Origin: Clostridia bacterium
Lineage (GTDB): Bacteria > Bacillota > Clostridia > Oscillospirales > CAG-272
Reading direction: 5' to 3'
Length of the DNA stretch: 44,259 nt
Assembly (NCBI GenBank): GCA_017397175.1
Contig: JAFQKA010000027.1
Span: forward strand, 1 to 44,259
The translations under genes were made by a program, and so were the position numbers. Below are positions 16,960-24,730 of the stretch, piece by piece. The notes under the pieces were generated by a model. That model did no database searches, was not told the origin of the DNA, and saw nothing but the letters and a program-made list of their open reading frames with translations. Within the stretch, counting starts at the first letter, position 1. Each line of letters starts with the position of its first letter.

Positions 16960-19554
16960 TTAAACGGTACCGGAACGGTTCAATCTCTCCACCTCATCGA
17001 AGATCTCCGCAGCGACCTTTCGCACCTCGTCGTAAAAGGCGCGCGCCGAAACTCTCTCCGCGCCGTGACCGAGAACGATTATCTGCTCAAGGTTGTCCGA
17101 CGTCGCCACGCGCACACGGTATTTTTTTCCGATCTCATAGGTCACGCGCTCGATATATGCGTCGGCAGTCTCCGCCTCCTTGGTGTAGACCACGCTTATC
17201 CCGCCCTCTTTTTCGACCGAGCCTCGTCCGCCTGCCACCTTGTAGGCATCAAACACAAGAATCAATCCGCAGCCGCGATAGCCCTGATAGTTGCAGAGAA
17301 TGTCGGTCAACAGCTTTCTGGCAAGGTTCAGATTGTCCTGCGCAATCTTTTTCAGATCCTCCCAGGCGAAAATTATGTTATATCCGTCCACCAAGACAAA
17401 TTCGGGTAAAACGGCAGTCTCTTTTTTAGGCTTTTTCGTCGTTTTTTTCTCATCATAGTCACGCCTGGTAGGGCCGTCACTGACTTTTTTGCGACGAATG
17501 GGACCGTAAGTCTTCTCAAAAATGCTTACAAGCTCACGATCGAGTGCCAGCGCGTCGGCGTAGGACACACCTCGGCGGCGTCGGGTCGCGGGAAGCGCAT
17601 CCGCGCTTTCCGCAGGCTCGGGCTCGTTGTCATCATAGCCTTCAAGGTGCATATATTCCTCTACCTGATCCCATTTTACGTTGAAGCCCGCACCGCCCGA
17701 GCAGAACACCGAATCGGGACTGTTTCGCAGGTCCGATTCGGGATCGTAACCCGACGCCGCCACGATCTCATCCTGACGTGCGGCAGGTCGGTATCCCGAG
17801 AGAGTCAGAAAAATTCTTCCCTCTCCCTTAGTGTAGGCGGTCAGCTCCTTTGGATATTCCCGAAGCTCGGATACAGCCGCGCTTCCTGCCAAAGTAGTCT
17901 CGCTCTCACCCGCGTCCTTTATTTCAAAGTCTCCGCCCATGCGGTTAATATCGTTCATGAGCCGTCCCACCGCCTCGGCAGGAACGCTTATTTCAAAGTC
18001 ATAATATGGCTCAAGTAGCACCGACTCGGCTTTCATCAGCCCCTGCCGCACCGCGCGGTAGGTCGCCTGTCGGAAATCACCGCCCTCGGTGTGCTTTAAG
18101 TGTGCCTTGCCCGAGATAAGCGTTATTTTCATATCTGTGATCGGTGCGCCCGTCAAAACTCCGCGGTGAGTTTTTTCCGCCAGGTGCGTCAGCACCAATC
18201 TCTGAAAATTCTGTGTCAGGATCTTGTCCGAACAAAGCGTGTCAAAAACAAGCCCGCTGCCCTCTTCTCCCTCTTCAAGGAGCAGGTGTACCTCGGCATA
18301 GTGGCGCAGAGGCTCAAAATGCCCCACACCCTCTACCGAGCCGCGGATCGTTTCCTTATATACTATGCGCCCCGCGCCGAAATCTATCTCCGTGCCGAAT
18401 CGGTCGCGCACCGTGCGCCGCAGGACCTGAAGCTGAATCTCACCCATAACGCGGACTCCGCTCTCCTGCGCCCGCTCGTCCCAGCTTACCGCCAGCAGAG
18501 GATCCTCCTCGGACAGCAGTTTCAGGCGGTCGTAAACGATCGCCGGTGCTGTGCCGTCAAGTATTTTGACGCTGTATGACAAGATCGGCTCGATCTGAGG
18601 TCTCTCACCCTCCATTTCAAAGCCAAGTCCCTGCCCCGCGTATGTCGAGTTAAGTCCCGTAACTGTGCAAACGTCTCCCGCCGTCGCTTTTTCGGCGGTT
18701 ATAAATTTCTCGCCCGAATAAAATCTTATCTGATCGGTCTTTTCATCGCCGATCATCATTTTTGACGCAAGCGTTCCACCCGTAATTTTCAAGTGGGTCA
18801 GTCTTGCGTTTTTTGCGTCTCTGGTGATCTTGTAAACCCGCGCGCCAAAAGTGTCGGGATACTTTTTCGATTTGATATACTTACAAAGTCCCGCGGCAAA
18901 CTCCTCAACGCCCTCGTTTTTCAGTGCCGAGCCGAAAAAGCAGGGGATTATACGTCTGCCCAAAATTGCGTTCTGCAAATCCTCGGTCTTGACCTCACCG
19001 CTTTCAAGGAAGCTGTCAAGAATATTCTCGTCAAGGCTCGCCACCTCCTCGCCAAAATCAGGTGAAGATGTATCCGAAAAATCAACGCACGCACCGTCAA
19101 GAGCGTTTCGCAGACTTCTCATAACGGCGGCCGTTTCATAAAATGAAATATCCATTTTATTGACAAAAATGAAGGTAGGCACGCCGTGATGGCGGAGCAG
19201 ATTCCAAATAGTTTTCGTATGGGACTGCACGCCCTCACTTCCGCTGACAACAAGCACCGCGTAATCAAGAACCGCCAGCGTTCTTTCTGCCTCACCCGAA
19301 AAATCCACGTGACCGGGAGTGTCGATAAGAGTAATGTCCGCCTCGGGGAAGGAAAGCATCGCCTGCTTTGAAAACACGGTGATGCCGCGCTCTCTTTCTA
19401 TTTCATTGTTGTCAAGGAAAGCATCGCCGCGGTCAACGCGGCCGATCTTGCGCAAAGCTCCCGCGCAAAAAAGCAGAGCCTCGGAAAGAGTAGTCTTTCC
19501 CGCGTCAACGTGGGCAAGTATGCCGACGGCGGCTTTTTTTCTTTCGTTTTCCAC
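16960..19554 (-). CDS. Tet(M)-like ribosomal GTPase fused to a Rae1/YacP NYN ribonuclease domain
   Basis: 864 residues. Residues 1 to about 640 are an EF-G/Tet(M)-type translational GTPase: GILAHVDAGKT (11-21), RGIT (56-59), DTPGH (79-83) and NKMD (132-135), then domains II-V ending near FEISVPAEAVGRLM. A Lys-rich linker (about 640-716) leads to a C-terminal NYN domain (717-864). That domain closely resembles Bacillus Rae1/YacP: VLVDGYNIIFAW (Asp723), VFDAYK (Asp769), ETADAYIE (Asp798) and ATSDNLEQ (Asp820) keep the acidic active-site pattern. Rae1 is known to cut mRNA in the ribosomal A site. A ribosome-docking GTPase that carries its own mRNA nuclease is the inference; tetracycline resistance is not supported by context. 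GTG start behind AAGGAGG, nine bases away. Monocistronic. Confidence 0.9.
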   Translation of the reverse strand: MENERKKAAVGILAHVDAGKTTLSEALLFCAGALRKIGRVDRGDAFLDNNEIERERGITVFSKQAMLSFPEADITLIDTPGHVDFSGEAERTLAVLDYAVLVVSGSEGVQSHTKTIWNLLRHHGVPTFIFVNKMDISFYETAAVMRSLRNALDGACVDFSDTSSPDFGEEVASLDENILDSFLESGEVKTEDLQNAILGRRIIPCFFGSALKNEGVEEFAAGLCKYIKSKKYPDTFGARVYKITRDAKNARLTHLKITGGTLASKMMIGDEKTDQIRFYSGEKFITAEKATAGDVCTVTGLNSTYAGQGLGFEMEGERPQIEPILSYSVKILDGTAPAIVYDRLKLLSEEDPLLAVSWDERAQESGVRVMGEIQLQVLRRTVRDRFGTEIDFGAGRIVYKETIRGSVEGVGHFEPLRHYAEVHLLLEEGEEGSGLVFDTLCSDKILTQNFQRLVLTHLAEKTHRGVLTGAPITDMKITLISGKAHLKHTEGGDFRQATYRAVRQGLMKAESVLLEPYYDFEISVPAEAVGRLMNDINRMGGDFEIKDAGESETTLAGSAAVSELREYPKELTAYTKGEGRIFLTLSGYRPAARQDEIVAASGYDPESDLRNSPDSVFCSGGAGFNVKWDQVEEYMHLEGYDDNEPEPAESADALPATRRRRGVSYADALALDRELVSIFEKTYGPIRRKKVSDGPTRRDYDEKKTTKKPKKETAVLPEFVLVDGYNIIFAWEDLKKIAQDNLNLARKLLTDILCNYQGYRGCGLILVFDAYKVAGGRGSVEKEGGISVVYTKEAETADAYIERVTYEIGKKYRVRVATSDNLEQIIVLGHGAERVSARAFYDEVRKVAAEIFDEVERLNRSGTV

Positions 19555-19586
19555 GGCATCTCGCCTCCTTTTTCTCAGATGGGTAA

Positions 19587-19615
19587 ATTATACACTATTT
19601 TTTGCAATTTATCAA
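19587..19615 (-). promoter_or_regulatory. Promoter of the GTPase-nuclease gene
   Basis: On the minus strand: TTGATA, 17-bp spacer, TATAAT. Leader only about 25-30 bases, so there is no room for the long attenuating leader typical of tet(M). Confidence 0.75.
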
Positions 19616-19646
19616 GTGTAAATCCGCACGCTTTTTGCGTTTTGAG

Positions 19647-19675
19647 TTGACACTTAGCTCAAAATGTGCTATGAT
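19647..19675 (+). promoter_or_regulatory. Promoter of the rimO operon
   Basis: TTGACA, 17-bp spacer, TATGAT, with ATGTGC before the -10. Divergent from the GTPase promoter; the two -35 boxes are about 30 bases apart. Confidence 0.8.
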
Positions 19676-21674: not shown

Positions 21675-22478
21675 ATGAAATTTATTTACGGAGTTTGCAT
21701 CGGTAAAGATGCAAGCAAGGTCGAGACGCTAAAAAAGATCGGCTGCGATTTCTGCGAAGTCGGCTTTTCTGCTTTGGCGGACGCCCCCGAAAGCGACGTT
21801 CGGACTATGGCTGATCAGTGCAAAAAGCACGGGATCAAATGCCTCAGCGCCAACGGCTTTATTCCTGCAAGGATCCGCTTGACAGGTCCTGACGTTGATG
21901 ATGCGGTAACCCTCAAATATCTCGAAGAATCCTTTGAAAAGCTGTCCGTTCTCGGTCTGAAAAGCGTGATCTTCGGAAGCGGCGGAGCAAGAAATATCCC
22001 CGAAGGCTTCTCTCGCGAGGAGGCAAAGGCGCAGATAGTTCATTTTTTGCGCGACCTGGTTGCTCCCTTGGCTGAAAAGTACGGCGTGGTCGTCGGCATC
22101 GAGGAGCTGAACGATAAGGAATCAAACGTGCTCAACACCTGCGCGGAGGCAATGGAATACGTCCGCGAGGTAAACAGTCCTTATGTAAAACTTCTGGTTG
22201 ATTTGTATCACGTTCTTCTGATGAACGAAAGCGTCGAAAGCCTTGCTGACTACAAGGGCGATATCAGCCACGTTCATATTGCAAGTCCCTCCCAAAACCG
22301 CCACGTTCCGTCCCCCACAGACCCCGAGGACTACGAAGAATTCTTCCGCGTACTGAAGGCGGCGGAATACGAAAGCGGTGCCATTTCCCTTGAAGGCAAC
22401 TTCGGCGGCGATTTCGAGGGAAGTGCCCGAGTTGCTATTGAATATTTGCGCTCGGTAGAGGCAAAGATCAACGTATGA
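21675..22478 (+). CDS. Sugar phosphate isomerase/epimerase-like TIM barrel
   Basis: A 267-residue cytoplasmic protein of the xylose-isomerase-like/AP-endonuclease-2 barrel superfamily. Supporting features are the CDFCEVGFSALAD first strand, GIKCLSANGFIP, VVGIEELNDKESNVLNT with a metal-ligand Glu, LLVDLYHVLLMNES with Asp and His ligands, ISHVHIASPSQNRHVP, and ISLEGNFGG with the last Glu. The metal site therefore looks intact. The substrate is unknown. Its stop overlaps the next gene's start by four bases, implying translational coupling with the GT4-CsaB fusion, so a role in supplying or modifying a wall-polymer sugar is a reasonable inference. Confidence 0.87.
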   Translation: MKFIYGVCIGKDASKVETLKKIGCDFCEVGFSALADAPESDVRTMADQCKKHGIKCLSANGFIPARIRLTGPDVDDAVTLKYLEESFEKLSVLGLKSVIFGSGGARNIPEGFSREEAKAQIVHFLRDLVAPLAEKYGVVVGIEELNDKESNVLNTCAEAMEYVREVNSPYVKLLVDLYHVLLMNESVESLADYKGDISHVHIASPSQNRHVPSPTDPEDYEEFFRVLKAAEYESGAISLEGNFGGDFEGSARVAIEYLRSVEAKINV

Positions 22479-24730
22479 AAATATTAATGTGTGCCATGGC
22501 TCTTGACATCGGCGGCGCGGAGACCCACGTGCTGGAGCTGTCAAGAGCTCTTTGCAGCATGGGACATAGCGTCACCGTGGCGTCAAACGGCGGTGCTTAC
22601 GTGCGCGAGCTTGAGGCTTGCGGGATAAAGCACGTCAGAATACCGCTTCACACAAAGGCTCCCTCCCGTGTGATAAAGTCCTATTTTGCTCTGAAAAAGT
22701 TAATAAAAAAAGAAAAGTTCGATATTGTACACGCTCACGCCCGCATTCCCGCATTTGTTTGCGGACTTCTGCATCCCGTCCTGCATTTTCGATTTGTCAC
22801 TACTGCCCATTGGGTCTTTGACGTGAACGCCCTTTGGAAAAGGATCGCATACTGGGGTGAAAAGACGGTGGCGGTCAGCGAGGATATAAAGCAATATCTT
22901 ATCGACTCCTACGGCGTTTTCTCCGACAACATTTCGGTCACGATCAACGGTGTGGATATGGTCAAGTTTTCGCCCGACACGCCGTCAAGCAGTGTCGCGC
23001 AGGAGCTTGGACTCCCCCAAAAGCGCAAGACCATAGTCTACGTCAGCCGAATGGACACCGACCGCTCCCTGGTCGCACGACAGCTTTGTGAGATCGCACC
23101 TGCTTTGAAAGAAAAGCACCCCGATCTGCAGATAGTCGTGGTGGGCGGCGGCAACGACCTTGACTACGTCAAGTTCTTGGCAGAAAAGGCGAACGAAACA
23201 ATAAAATACGAAAAATTCGTCCACACAACGGGCGCCAGAACCGATATTAATAATCTGGTTGCTCTGGGCGACGTTTTCGTGGGCGTTTCACGCGCCGCAC
23301 TTGAAGCCATGAGCGCATCAAAGCCCGTTATCGTCGCGGGAAACGAGGGATATATCGGTCGTCCCGAGGGAGATATGTACGACACCGCCGTTGCCACCAA
23401 CTTCTGTTGCCGCGGCTGTGAGGCGTCAACTCCCGAAAAGCTTTTGTCCGACCTTTGCGACCTTTTGGCTCTGCCCGAAAACGAGCTTTCTGCCATCGGC
23501 GAAAAAAACAGAGAAATTATCCGCGAAAATTATTCCGCCTCGCGCATGGCGACGGACTGCCTGACAGTTTACGAGAGCCTGCGCCCATTCGAATACAAAA
23601 AAGAAAACGACGTTATCATCTCGGGCTACTACGGCTTTGGAAATATGGGCGACGATTCTCTGCTTACCTCCATCGCCGCTCAGCTTCGTCAGATCGACCC
23701 CGAGATCAGAATAACCGCCTTGACCAAGGACCCCAAAAAGTCGCAGATCAAATACGGCGTTCGTTGCATAAACAGACTGAACGTTTTCGCTGTCAGACGT
23801 GAAATGAAGCGATCAAAGCTCCTTATCAGCGGCGGCGGATCCCTGCTCCAGAACAACACCAGCGAAAAGTCCCTCAATTACTATATTGCTGTGATCAGGC
23901 TGGCAAAGAGGCTGGGGTTGCCCGTAATGGTCTATTCAAACGGAATCGGGCCAATTTACGGCGAGCGAAGCGTGGCAAAGGTGAAAAAGGTGCTTGAGGA
24001 AGTGGACCTTATCAGCCTACGCGAGCCTTCCTCCTTTGAATTTCTCCAAGAGATCGGACTTCGCGCAAAGAAGGAGATCAAGGTCACAGCCGACCCTGCC
24101 CTTACCGTCCTTCCCATTGACGCGGCGAGACTTTCCTACATTGAAAACAGGCTGGGAATCGACACAAAAACGAAAAAATATTATGCCCTCTCGGTCAGAG
24201 AATACGAAAATCTCAAAACAGGCGGCGAGCTTTCAAAAACGGAATTTGTTCGACGCATCGCTGCGGCCATGTCCGAGATATACGGCCGCACGGGGCTTCT
24301 CCCTTTGGTCGTATCGGTTCAAAATATCGTCGATGATGAAATCAGTAGCGCGGTCTGTCTGCAATTTGAAAAGCTCAGCGGCCAAAAGGCGATCCTGGTT
24401 CAAGGGCTTAGCGCAAGAGAGCTGACGGCACTTCTTTCTCATATGGAATTTGCCGCGGGAATGAGACTTCATATGCTCATTTACGCTACAAACGCCCGTA
24501 TTCCCGCCATCGGAATTGCCTACGACCCAAAGATCAGCGCGTTTCTTGAATATTCGGGACACGAGAAGCCTATCGACATCGGCAATTTCACCGCGCAGGA
24601 CATCGTTTTGCGCGCAGAGCACACTCTGGCCTGCCGCCGTGAGCTTTGCGAAAAGATCGGTTTCCGTCAAAGGGAACTTTCCGATCTTGCGCTTTTTGAC
24701 GCGCGATCCGCCATAAAATTTATCAAATAA
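22475..24730 (+). CDS. csaB: Glycosyltransferase-CsaB polysaccharide pyruvyl transferase fusion
   Basis: 751 residues, two enzymes in one chain. Residues 1-375 are a GT-B fold family-4 glycosyltransferase: CAMALDIGGAETHVLELSRAL, FDIVHAHAR, INGVDMVKFSP, VVGGGNDL and the acidic VSRAALEAMSASKPVIV. Residues about 379-751 are a CsaB-type pyruvyl transferase: ISGYYGFGNMGDDSLL (382-397), LLISGGGSLLQN (449-460), SNGIGPI, SVREYENL and GMRLHMLIYA with the conserved Arg/His. CsaB is known to pyruvylate the secondary wall polymer that SLH domains grip. The GT4 half may add the acceptor sugar. Cytoplasmic/peripheral membrane. Ends at a strong terminator. Confidence 0.92.
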   Translation: MKILMCAMALDIGGAETHVLELSRALCSMGHSVTVASNGGAYVRELEACGIKHVRIPLHTKAPSRVIKSYFALKKLIKKEKFDIVHAHARIPAFVCGLLHPVLHFRFVTTAHWVFDVNALWKRIAYWGEKTVAVSEDIKQYLIDSYGVFSDNISVTINGVDMVKFSPDTPSSSVAQELGLPQKRKTIVYVSRMDTDRSLVARQLCEIAPALKEKHPDLQIVVVGGGNDLDYVKFLAEKANETIKYEKFVHTTGARTDINNLVALGDVFVGVSRAALEAMSASKPVIVAGNEGYIGRPEGDMYDTAVATNFCCRGCEASTPEKLLSDLCDLLALPENELSAIGEKNREIIRENYSASRMATDCLTVYESLRPFEYKKENDVIISGYYGFGNMGDDSLLTSIAAQLRQIDPEIRITALTKDPKKSQIKYGVRCINRLNVFAVRREMKRSKLLISGGGSLLQNNTSEKSLNYYIAVIRLAKRLGLPVMVYSNGIGPIYGERSVAKVKKVLEEVDLISLREPSSFEFLQEIGLRAKKEIKVTADPALTVLPIDAARLSYIENRLGIDTKTKKYYALSVREYENLKTGGELSKTEFVRRIAAAMSEIYGRTGLLPLVVSVQNIVDDEISSAVCLQFEKLSGQKAILVQGLSARELTALLSHMEFAAGMRLHMLIYATNARIPAIGIAYDPKISAFLEYSGHEKPIDIGNFTAQDIVLRAEHTLACRRELCEKIGFRQRELSDLALFDARSAIKFIK

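Follow-up and report, generated by a model that had tools for sequence, protein, structure and literature searches.

Our analysis of a 44,259-nucleotide stretch of DNA from a Clostridia bacterium of the CAG-272 lineage (contig JAFQKA010000027.1; we call the whole stretch "the window") concerns a single open frame at 16960..19554 (-), which begins with a GTG codon and encodes an 864-amino-acid translational GTPase fused to an NYN_YacP (Rae1-type) nuclease domain. Pfam recognizes in it a G domain (GTP_EFTU, residues 9–228, E 3.9e-48; 18871..19530 (-), in agreement with the group consensus), EF-G domains III–V (residues 322–593; 17776..18591 (-); EFG_III, EFG_IV at 395–510 and EFG_C at 512–593) and the nuclease domain (NYN_YacP at 720–858, E 1.7e-46, 158.7 bits against a cut-off of 24.6); EF-G_D2 falls below its cut-off (23 versus 27 bits). 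The original prediction that one chain joins a ribosome-type GTPase to a Rae1-type nuclease is borne out by both Pfam and PDB sequence searches, and the G motifs lie where it had placed them (residues 11–21, 56–59, 79–83 and 132–135). The GTPase part (residues 1–638) is an intact protein of the EF-G/Tet type, and the NYN domain follows it after some 75 residues of flexible linker. Domain IV carries at its tip loop 1, GVGHFEPLRHYAEV (residues 409–422; 18289..18330 (-)), which hardly varies among members of the family, fused or unfused, and loop 3 with the next helix, HLKHTEGGDFRQATYRAVRQGL (residues 485–506; 18037..18102 (-)), where Tet(O) has YSPVST. A family-specific C-terminal hairpin, DSVFCSGGAGFNVKWDQVEEYMH, lies within residues 594–638 (17641..17775 (-)), and the unfused sister proteins discussed below stop at it or shortly past it.

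The linker (residues 639–717; 17404..17640 (-)) has mostly pLDDT values below 50 and includes a conserved helix of the ELxxIFxxTYG type. An AlphaFold model made with a 32-row alignment (mean pLDDT 82.7, pTM 0.61) is mostly confident for residues 1–640 and 718–860, has pLDDT below 50 at 642–666 and 683–713, and places a low-confidence helix at 660–683 between these two disordered stretches. Since the model is confident in both parts and disordered between them, the protein is predicted to consist of two folded units joined by a flexible tether; how the GTPase and NYN parts sit relative to each other is uncertain at this pTM. Of 46 fused proteins subjected to linker measurement, 45 (all except L051, which was missed) have linkers of 68–202 residues, with a median of 78; Lys, Arg and Pro are abundant in the stretch preceding the NYN domain, and most linkers retain the ELxxIFxxTYG-type helix.

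An AGGAGG ribosome-binding site can be read from the sequence at 19564..19569 (-), and a near-consensus sigma-70-like promoter (TTGATA-17-TATAAT) lies at 19587..19615 (-), 32 nt upstream of the GTG, so that the gene does have the promoter of its own and the short leader that had been proposed; there is no space for an attenuator between promoter and start. Strong promoters were found in 20 of 37 fused rows scanned, 12 of them at 17–47 nt from the start and 8 at 70–210 nt, and in the latter a leader is possible. In the window the fusion gene and rimO have back-to-back promoters in 19587–19675, that of rimO being TTGACA-17-TATGAT.

The nuclease half (residues 718–864; 16963..17403 (-)) matches the solved structures of Bacillus subtilis YacP/Rae1 (5MQ8, 5MQ9) with an E value of 3.4e-22 in the PDB sequence search. 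It is the same domain (PF05991) with the same four aspartates, Asp723, Asp769, Asp798 and Asp820, which we take to be the active-site residues with a catalytic role and which are present in 61/61 fused and 27/27 free domains; widespread loss of these acidic residues would have spoken against the nuclease assignment, and it is not seen. The motifs that had been read as those of Bacillus Rae1 stand as far as the active-site residues are concerned, but FDAY does not, as B. subtilis has FDAH; the FDAY tyrosine occurs in 61/61 fused domains versus 6/27 free ones. The B. subtilis protein differs in being free (the 5MQ8 chain has 181 amino acids), whereas the window domain is part of a GTPase chain, and its gene is not at the site of the free clostridial copies, which lie mostly between rlmB and sigH. 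Rae1 is described in PMC12320835 and PMC10100781 as a translation-dependent endonuclease that cleaves mRNA in the ribosomal A site. In a tree of NYN domains (38 of 88 rows, hand-picked; the duplicates or pieces L001, L032, L187, L189–L192, L194, L195 and L197 and matches shorter than 110 amino acids were dropped) the fused domains form one clade (98–99) that includes a free copy from genome G243; those of L075 and L076 sit on a long branch away from the other fused ones, and a single origin of all fused domains, these two included, is not rejected (p 0.62–0.66). The G243 copy (L235:6790-7359 (-), L066) is a free domain closest to fused ones and lies away from the rlmB-sigH position; the same genome also holds an unfused GTPase. 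It nests among fused domains, yet this nesting is not compelled (p 0.567), and it is likely a split-off from a fusion.

The relation of the other half to Tet(M) and EF-G, also part of the original prediction, is evident over the GTPase part, where the whole window protein matches TetO, TetM and EF-G with E values of about 1e-66 to 1e-64 in the PDB sequence search. With EF-G it shares the fold and the ribosome-type GTPase motifs, and differs in its domain IV loops and in having about 25–29% identity to the rows taken as EF-G; the EF-G equivalog model TIGR00484 gives 276.9 bits against a cut-off of 659.4. With Tet(M) and Tet(O) it shares the domain order and the GTPase motifs, and differs in its domain IV tip loops, its own C-terminal hairpin and its score on the ribosomal protection (RPP) model NF012153. 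That model is its best NCBIfam match, but the window protein reaches 400.2 bits; together with two more fused and two unfused members it spans 398–456 bits, under the cut-off of 775, and the clostridial control RPP L178 scores 1000.8. When 73 members are compared, 36 domain IV positions reach 95% identity or more, and the residues of GHFEPLRHY and KHTEGGDFR are counted among them. Pro509 in loop 3 of Tet ribosome protection proteins enters the tetracycline site (PMC8161019); the family has KHTEGG in loop 3, a place taken by YSPVST in Tet(O) and by HDVDSSE in EF-G, and the tetracycline-displacing proline loop is absent from its domain IV. By these sequence tests the family is not a member of the resistance (RPP) family, and with neither the RPP score nor the Tet(M) loop 3 in place, the earlier label "Tet(M)-like" fails in its functional sense. 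By analogy with Tet proteins and EF-G the GTPase would nevertheless probably work on ribosomes. L176 and L180–L183 are another clostridial Tet-like group, with loop 3 sequences such as HHVHTHPLDF; L176 and L180 score 606 and 557 bits on the RPP model, also under 775.

The fusion is common in the class. Among 391 genomes drawn evenly from Clostridia, a search with NYN_YacP (up to nine candidates per genome scored) gave a match in 249, of which 248 are above the cut-off (G248 was dropped for a match under it). These comprise 129 genomes with clear fusions, 12 with fusions in pieces and 107 with free Rae1 only, leaving 143 without an NYN domain above the cut-off. Fusions were called by a match reaching at least residue 840 in 126 of the 129, and by a shorter match plus frame length in G001, G081 and G367; for fused and unfused counts the two best candidates per genome were scored, so that a weaker second copy may be missed. 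With clear fusions in 129/391 genomes the window gene is not a one-off assembly error. Pieces included, the fusions span 77 genera and 27 families, and a phylum-wide set of 398 genomes yields 30 with a match at E 1e-100, of which 23 are fused, 6 unfused and 1 of another kind. G133 has two fusions, and G136, G201 and G242 have second NYN matches below the cut-off. Free Rae1 frames are 160–217 amino acids long, with one of 342. Fused and free forms nearly exclude one another, as had been suspected: a single fusion genome of the 129 (G330) also has a free copy, versus 107 of the 250 genomes that lack a fusion (Fisher p 1e-22, kinship ignored). Both forms occur, in different genomes, in five families and three genera: g34 (2 fused, 2 free), g39 (6 fused, 1 free) and g101 (2 in pieces, 1 free). 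The home genome, 72% complete, holds this one NYN domain. In the single-contig genome G221 an in-frame TAG splits the fusion gene (L172) between matches to query residues 265 and 271.

The position that free rae1 occupies shows what accompanies the fusion. In 45 free-rae1 loci, from 43 of the 107 free-Rae1 genomes plus G330, the order is rlmB-rae1-sigH in 38; 5 have one of these neighbours and 2 (one gene, that of G243) neither. We examined 20 fusion genomes, hand-picked from families likely to hold sigH, and found sigH in 20/20; in 17 rlmB adjoins sigH with no rae1, across gaps of 59–570 nt, and in the remaining three (all of genus g123) sigH is present without rlmB within the flank. When the fused/free label is mapped onto a sigH tree of 62 rows, one genome supplying two of them, it must change 10 times, with 4 or more of these changes on well-supported branches; the figure of 10 is rough because the tree has long branches. 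The swap of free rae1 for the fusion seems to have happened several times, and to concern many gut bacteria. Because the slot is closed, the fused chain seemingly substitutes for Rae1, and repeatedly so; this is the strongest evidence for its role. In the home genome no rae1 or sigH lies within the flank of about 1.5 kb around rlmB; the frame that follows rlmB there, where rae1 would stand, is acidic and 487 or more amino acids long (L265:1-1461 (-)).

Unfused sister GTPases, mostly of 640–655 amino acids and terminating at or just past the family hairpin, are present in 23/391 genomes, 15 of which have free Rae1 and 8 no NYN domain. With two candidates scored per genome, fused and unfused forms were found together in 0/141 fusion genomes, and the unfused form in 23/250 others (p 5e-5). 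In a GTPase tree (46 of 92 rows, hand-picked; the partial loci L086, L091 and L098 were dropped) fused and unfused proteins form one clade (100/100) that is sister to clostridial Tet-like rows, five in number (97/88), one of which is above the RPP cut-off; the window GTPase thus lies in a sister clade and not inside the RPP clade. The fused GTPases form one clade (100/99), which also holds unfused copies of Bifidobacterium and Collinsella (the latter from a 7-kb contig). One fusion event fits this tree, since the fused rows form one clade with unfused copies nested in it, and loss of the nuclease later, outside Clostridia on the actinobacterial branch, is a well-supported reading of it. A second loss is probable in Ligilactobacillus; the five nearest rows to the Ligilactobacillus salivarius megaplasmid copy are all fused, in a placement without strong support. 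We had considered that unfused copies in fusion-bearing families might be truncated fusions, and rejected this as most fall outside the fused clade. As unfused copies nest among fused ones and 8/23 of their genomes have no NYN domain, the GTPase seemingly shed the nuclease and needs a job of its own. Free Rae1 accompanies the unfused GTPase in 15/23 genomes versus 92/227 of the others (p 0.027, ignoring kinship), which we regard as weak Rosetta-stone support. The L. salivarius megaplasmid copy (L267:4007-5926) is annotated as a TetM/TetW/TetO/TetS family protein, and Ligilactobacillus accounts for 33/38 matching plasmid records (12 of the 38 being among the matches listed).

The architecture has been noted before. 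The parts of Atkinson 2015 (PMC4342817) available to us describe ten Clostridiales species whose Tet proteins have gained an RNase domain of the YacP-like NYN type, and suggest a new antibiotic-resistance mechanism via RNase activity; the window protein, which pairs a Tet-type GTPase with such a domain, fits that description, and the difference is that the fusions are read there as possible resistance, with no displacement of rae1 mentioned in those parts. The fusion is therefore real and widespread, and its architecture has been in print since 2015. Leroy 2017 is said to have described Rae1, later than Atkinson's paper, and Condon 2018 reportedly treats its distribution. Titles and abstract openings in the Rae1, YacP and NYN_YacP literature gave no other report of the fusion or of rae1 loss, and the Condon and Leroy papers may mention the fusion. 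As far as these searches show, what is new here is that rae1 is lost where the fusion occurs, that the family stands apart from the resistance proteins, that an unfused sister exists and that public records label some members as resistance proteins.

We believe, with a probability of roughly 0.65, that the gene is the GTPase-equipped Rae1 of its lineage, which displaces free rae1 and docks on, then cuts at, stalled ribosomes. In EF-G and Tet proteins domain IV occupies the ribosomal A site. PMC8161019 likewise has Tet proteins overlapping the EF-G site there. Domain IV and the Rae1 domain should then compete for the A site, making it unlikely that both halves act at once on one ribosome and favouring their successive use. 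That the protein binds ribosomes and cleaves there, and that it docks, leaves and then cuts, is our inference. The GTPase would sense ribosomes whose A site is empty or blocked and insert domain IV, whose tip loops are particular to the family and hardly vary; hydrolysis of GTP would free it from the ribosome; and the long, flexible, basic linker would keep the nuclease near, to enter the vacated A site and cut the mRNA there as Rae1 does. Alternatively, the nuclease could act on a neighbouring, collided ribosome. The GTPase perhaps clears or translocates the stalled ribosome, cutting being the second resort, and its survival without the nuclease does suggest a useful act of its own. A more specific version, to which we would give somewhat less than even odds, has the GTPase actively readying the stalled A site (by translocation or removal of a blocker) and handing it to the nuclease of the same chain; this pair would have supplanted free Rae1 repeatedly, and in the 15/391 genomes that hold an unfused GTPase together with free Rae1 the two may cooperate in trans. 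The GTPase would be an aid to Rae1 and not a need, since 92/107 free-Rae1 genomes lack it, and the job itself appears dispensable, as 143/391 genomes have neither form of the nuclease. As to origin, a GTPase of the EF-G family, belonging to a separate subfamily whose sisters are the Tet RPPs, would have gained the C-terminal Rae1 domain, most simply once, and the fusion would have spread through Clostridia, partly horizontally (as its patchy distribution suggests), repeatedly ousting rae1 from the rlmB-sigH slot.

That each half occurs alone, the GTPase in 8/23 of its unfused genomes without any NYN domain and Rae1 mostly without the GTPase, could also mean that the chain carries two jobs, those of an ordinary Rae1 domain and of a GTPase with an unrelated task on the ribosome, the fusion serving only to fix their ratio or to retain both at the ribosome. 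The long, disordered linker and the shedding of the nuclease on the actinobacterial branch, and probably in Ligilactobacillus, agree with this; but the fused chain persists in 77 genera of 27 families (counting fusions in pieces), most linkers keep their helix, and one split-off NYN domain is suspected (G243), so we find two independent jobs unlikely.

More improbable still is the reading suggested in Atkinson 2015, in which a ribosome protection protein that confers tetracycline resistance has gained an RNase. It gains from the RPP model being the best NCBIfam match, from the sister position of RPP-like proteins, from the TetM/TetW/TetO/TetS names that some members bear in public records, and from the 8/20 strong promoters far enough from the start for a leader. 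The scores of the window and four other members, however, are little more than half the cut-off that the control RPP passes; KHTEGG replaces the loop whose proline enters the tetracycline site; an attenuator has no room at the window gene, and 12/20 strong promoters are similarly close to the start; and resistance leaves the loss of rae1 unexplained. To a GTP-dependent nuclease for rRNA or tRNA maturation we give the least credence of all: the older proposal for the NYN domain, cited in Atkinson 2015 (PMC4342817), speaks for it, but the free homologue as later characterized, in the sources given above, is a translation-dependent mRNA endonuclease, and the fusion occurs exactly where free rae1 is missing.

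To our knowledge, how Rae1 enters a stalled ribosome is an open question. If the fused chain acts as a GTPase-equipped Rae1, it offers a candidate helper GTPase for this step, and a single protein with its point mutants would suffice to test the matter. The resistance labels in public records (Agathobacter rectalis, Ligilactobacillus salivarius) are probably wrong and a different, perhaps housekeeping, family is suggested; such mislabelled members would bear on resistome counts.

The original prediction had also drawn on the divergent rimO gene. Among 52 loci (36 fused and 16 unfused), rimO, pgsA and a GH39 gene are near the family gene in the window only, and the rimO neighbourhood is a matter of chance. 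The commonest neighbour family is of the ABC type, in 11/52 loci at scattered positions (antisense frames over the gene excluded), and with no consistent neighbour across the 52 loci we rejected rimO and the other neighbours as functional context. Anti-phage defence was rejected likewise, there being no PADLOC match, as was viral carriage, none being confirmed in viral contigs. The home genome gave seven weak tmRNA matches, none above the cut-off, at its 72% completeness. The fusion is present at full length in two "Bacteriophage sp." records marked unverified (L270, L271; MT835563.1 and MT835514.1), which are probably mislabelled pieces of chromosome because the surrounding frames, judged by their starts, look bacterial. 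Elsewhere in the window, at 22475–24730, one frame combines glycosyltransferase domains (Glyco_transf_4, Glycos_transf_1) with a polysaccharide pyruvyl transferase domain.
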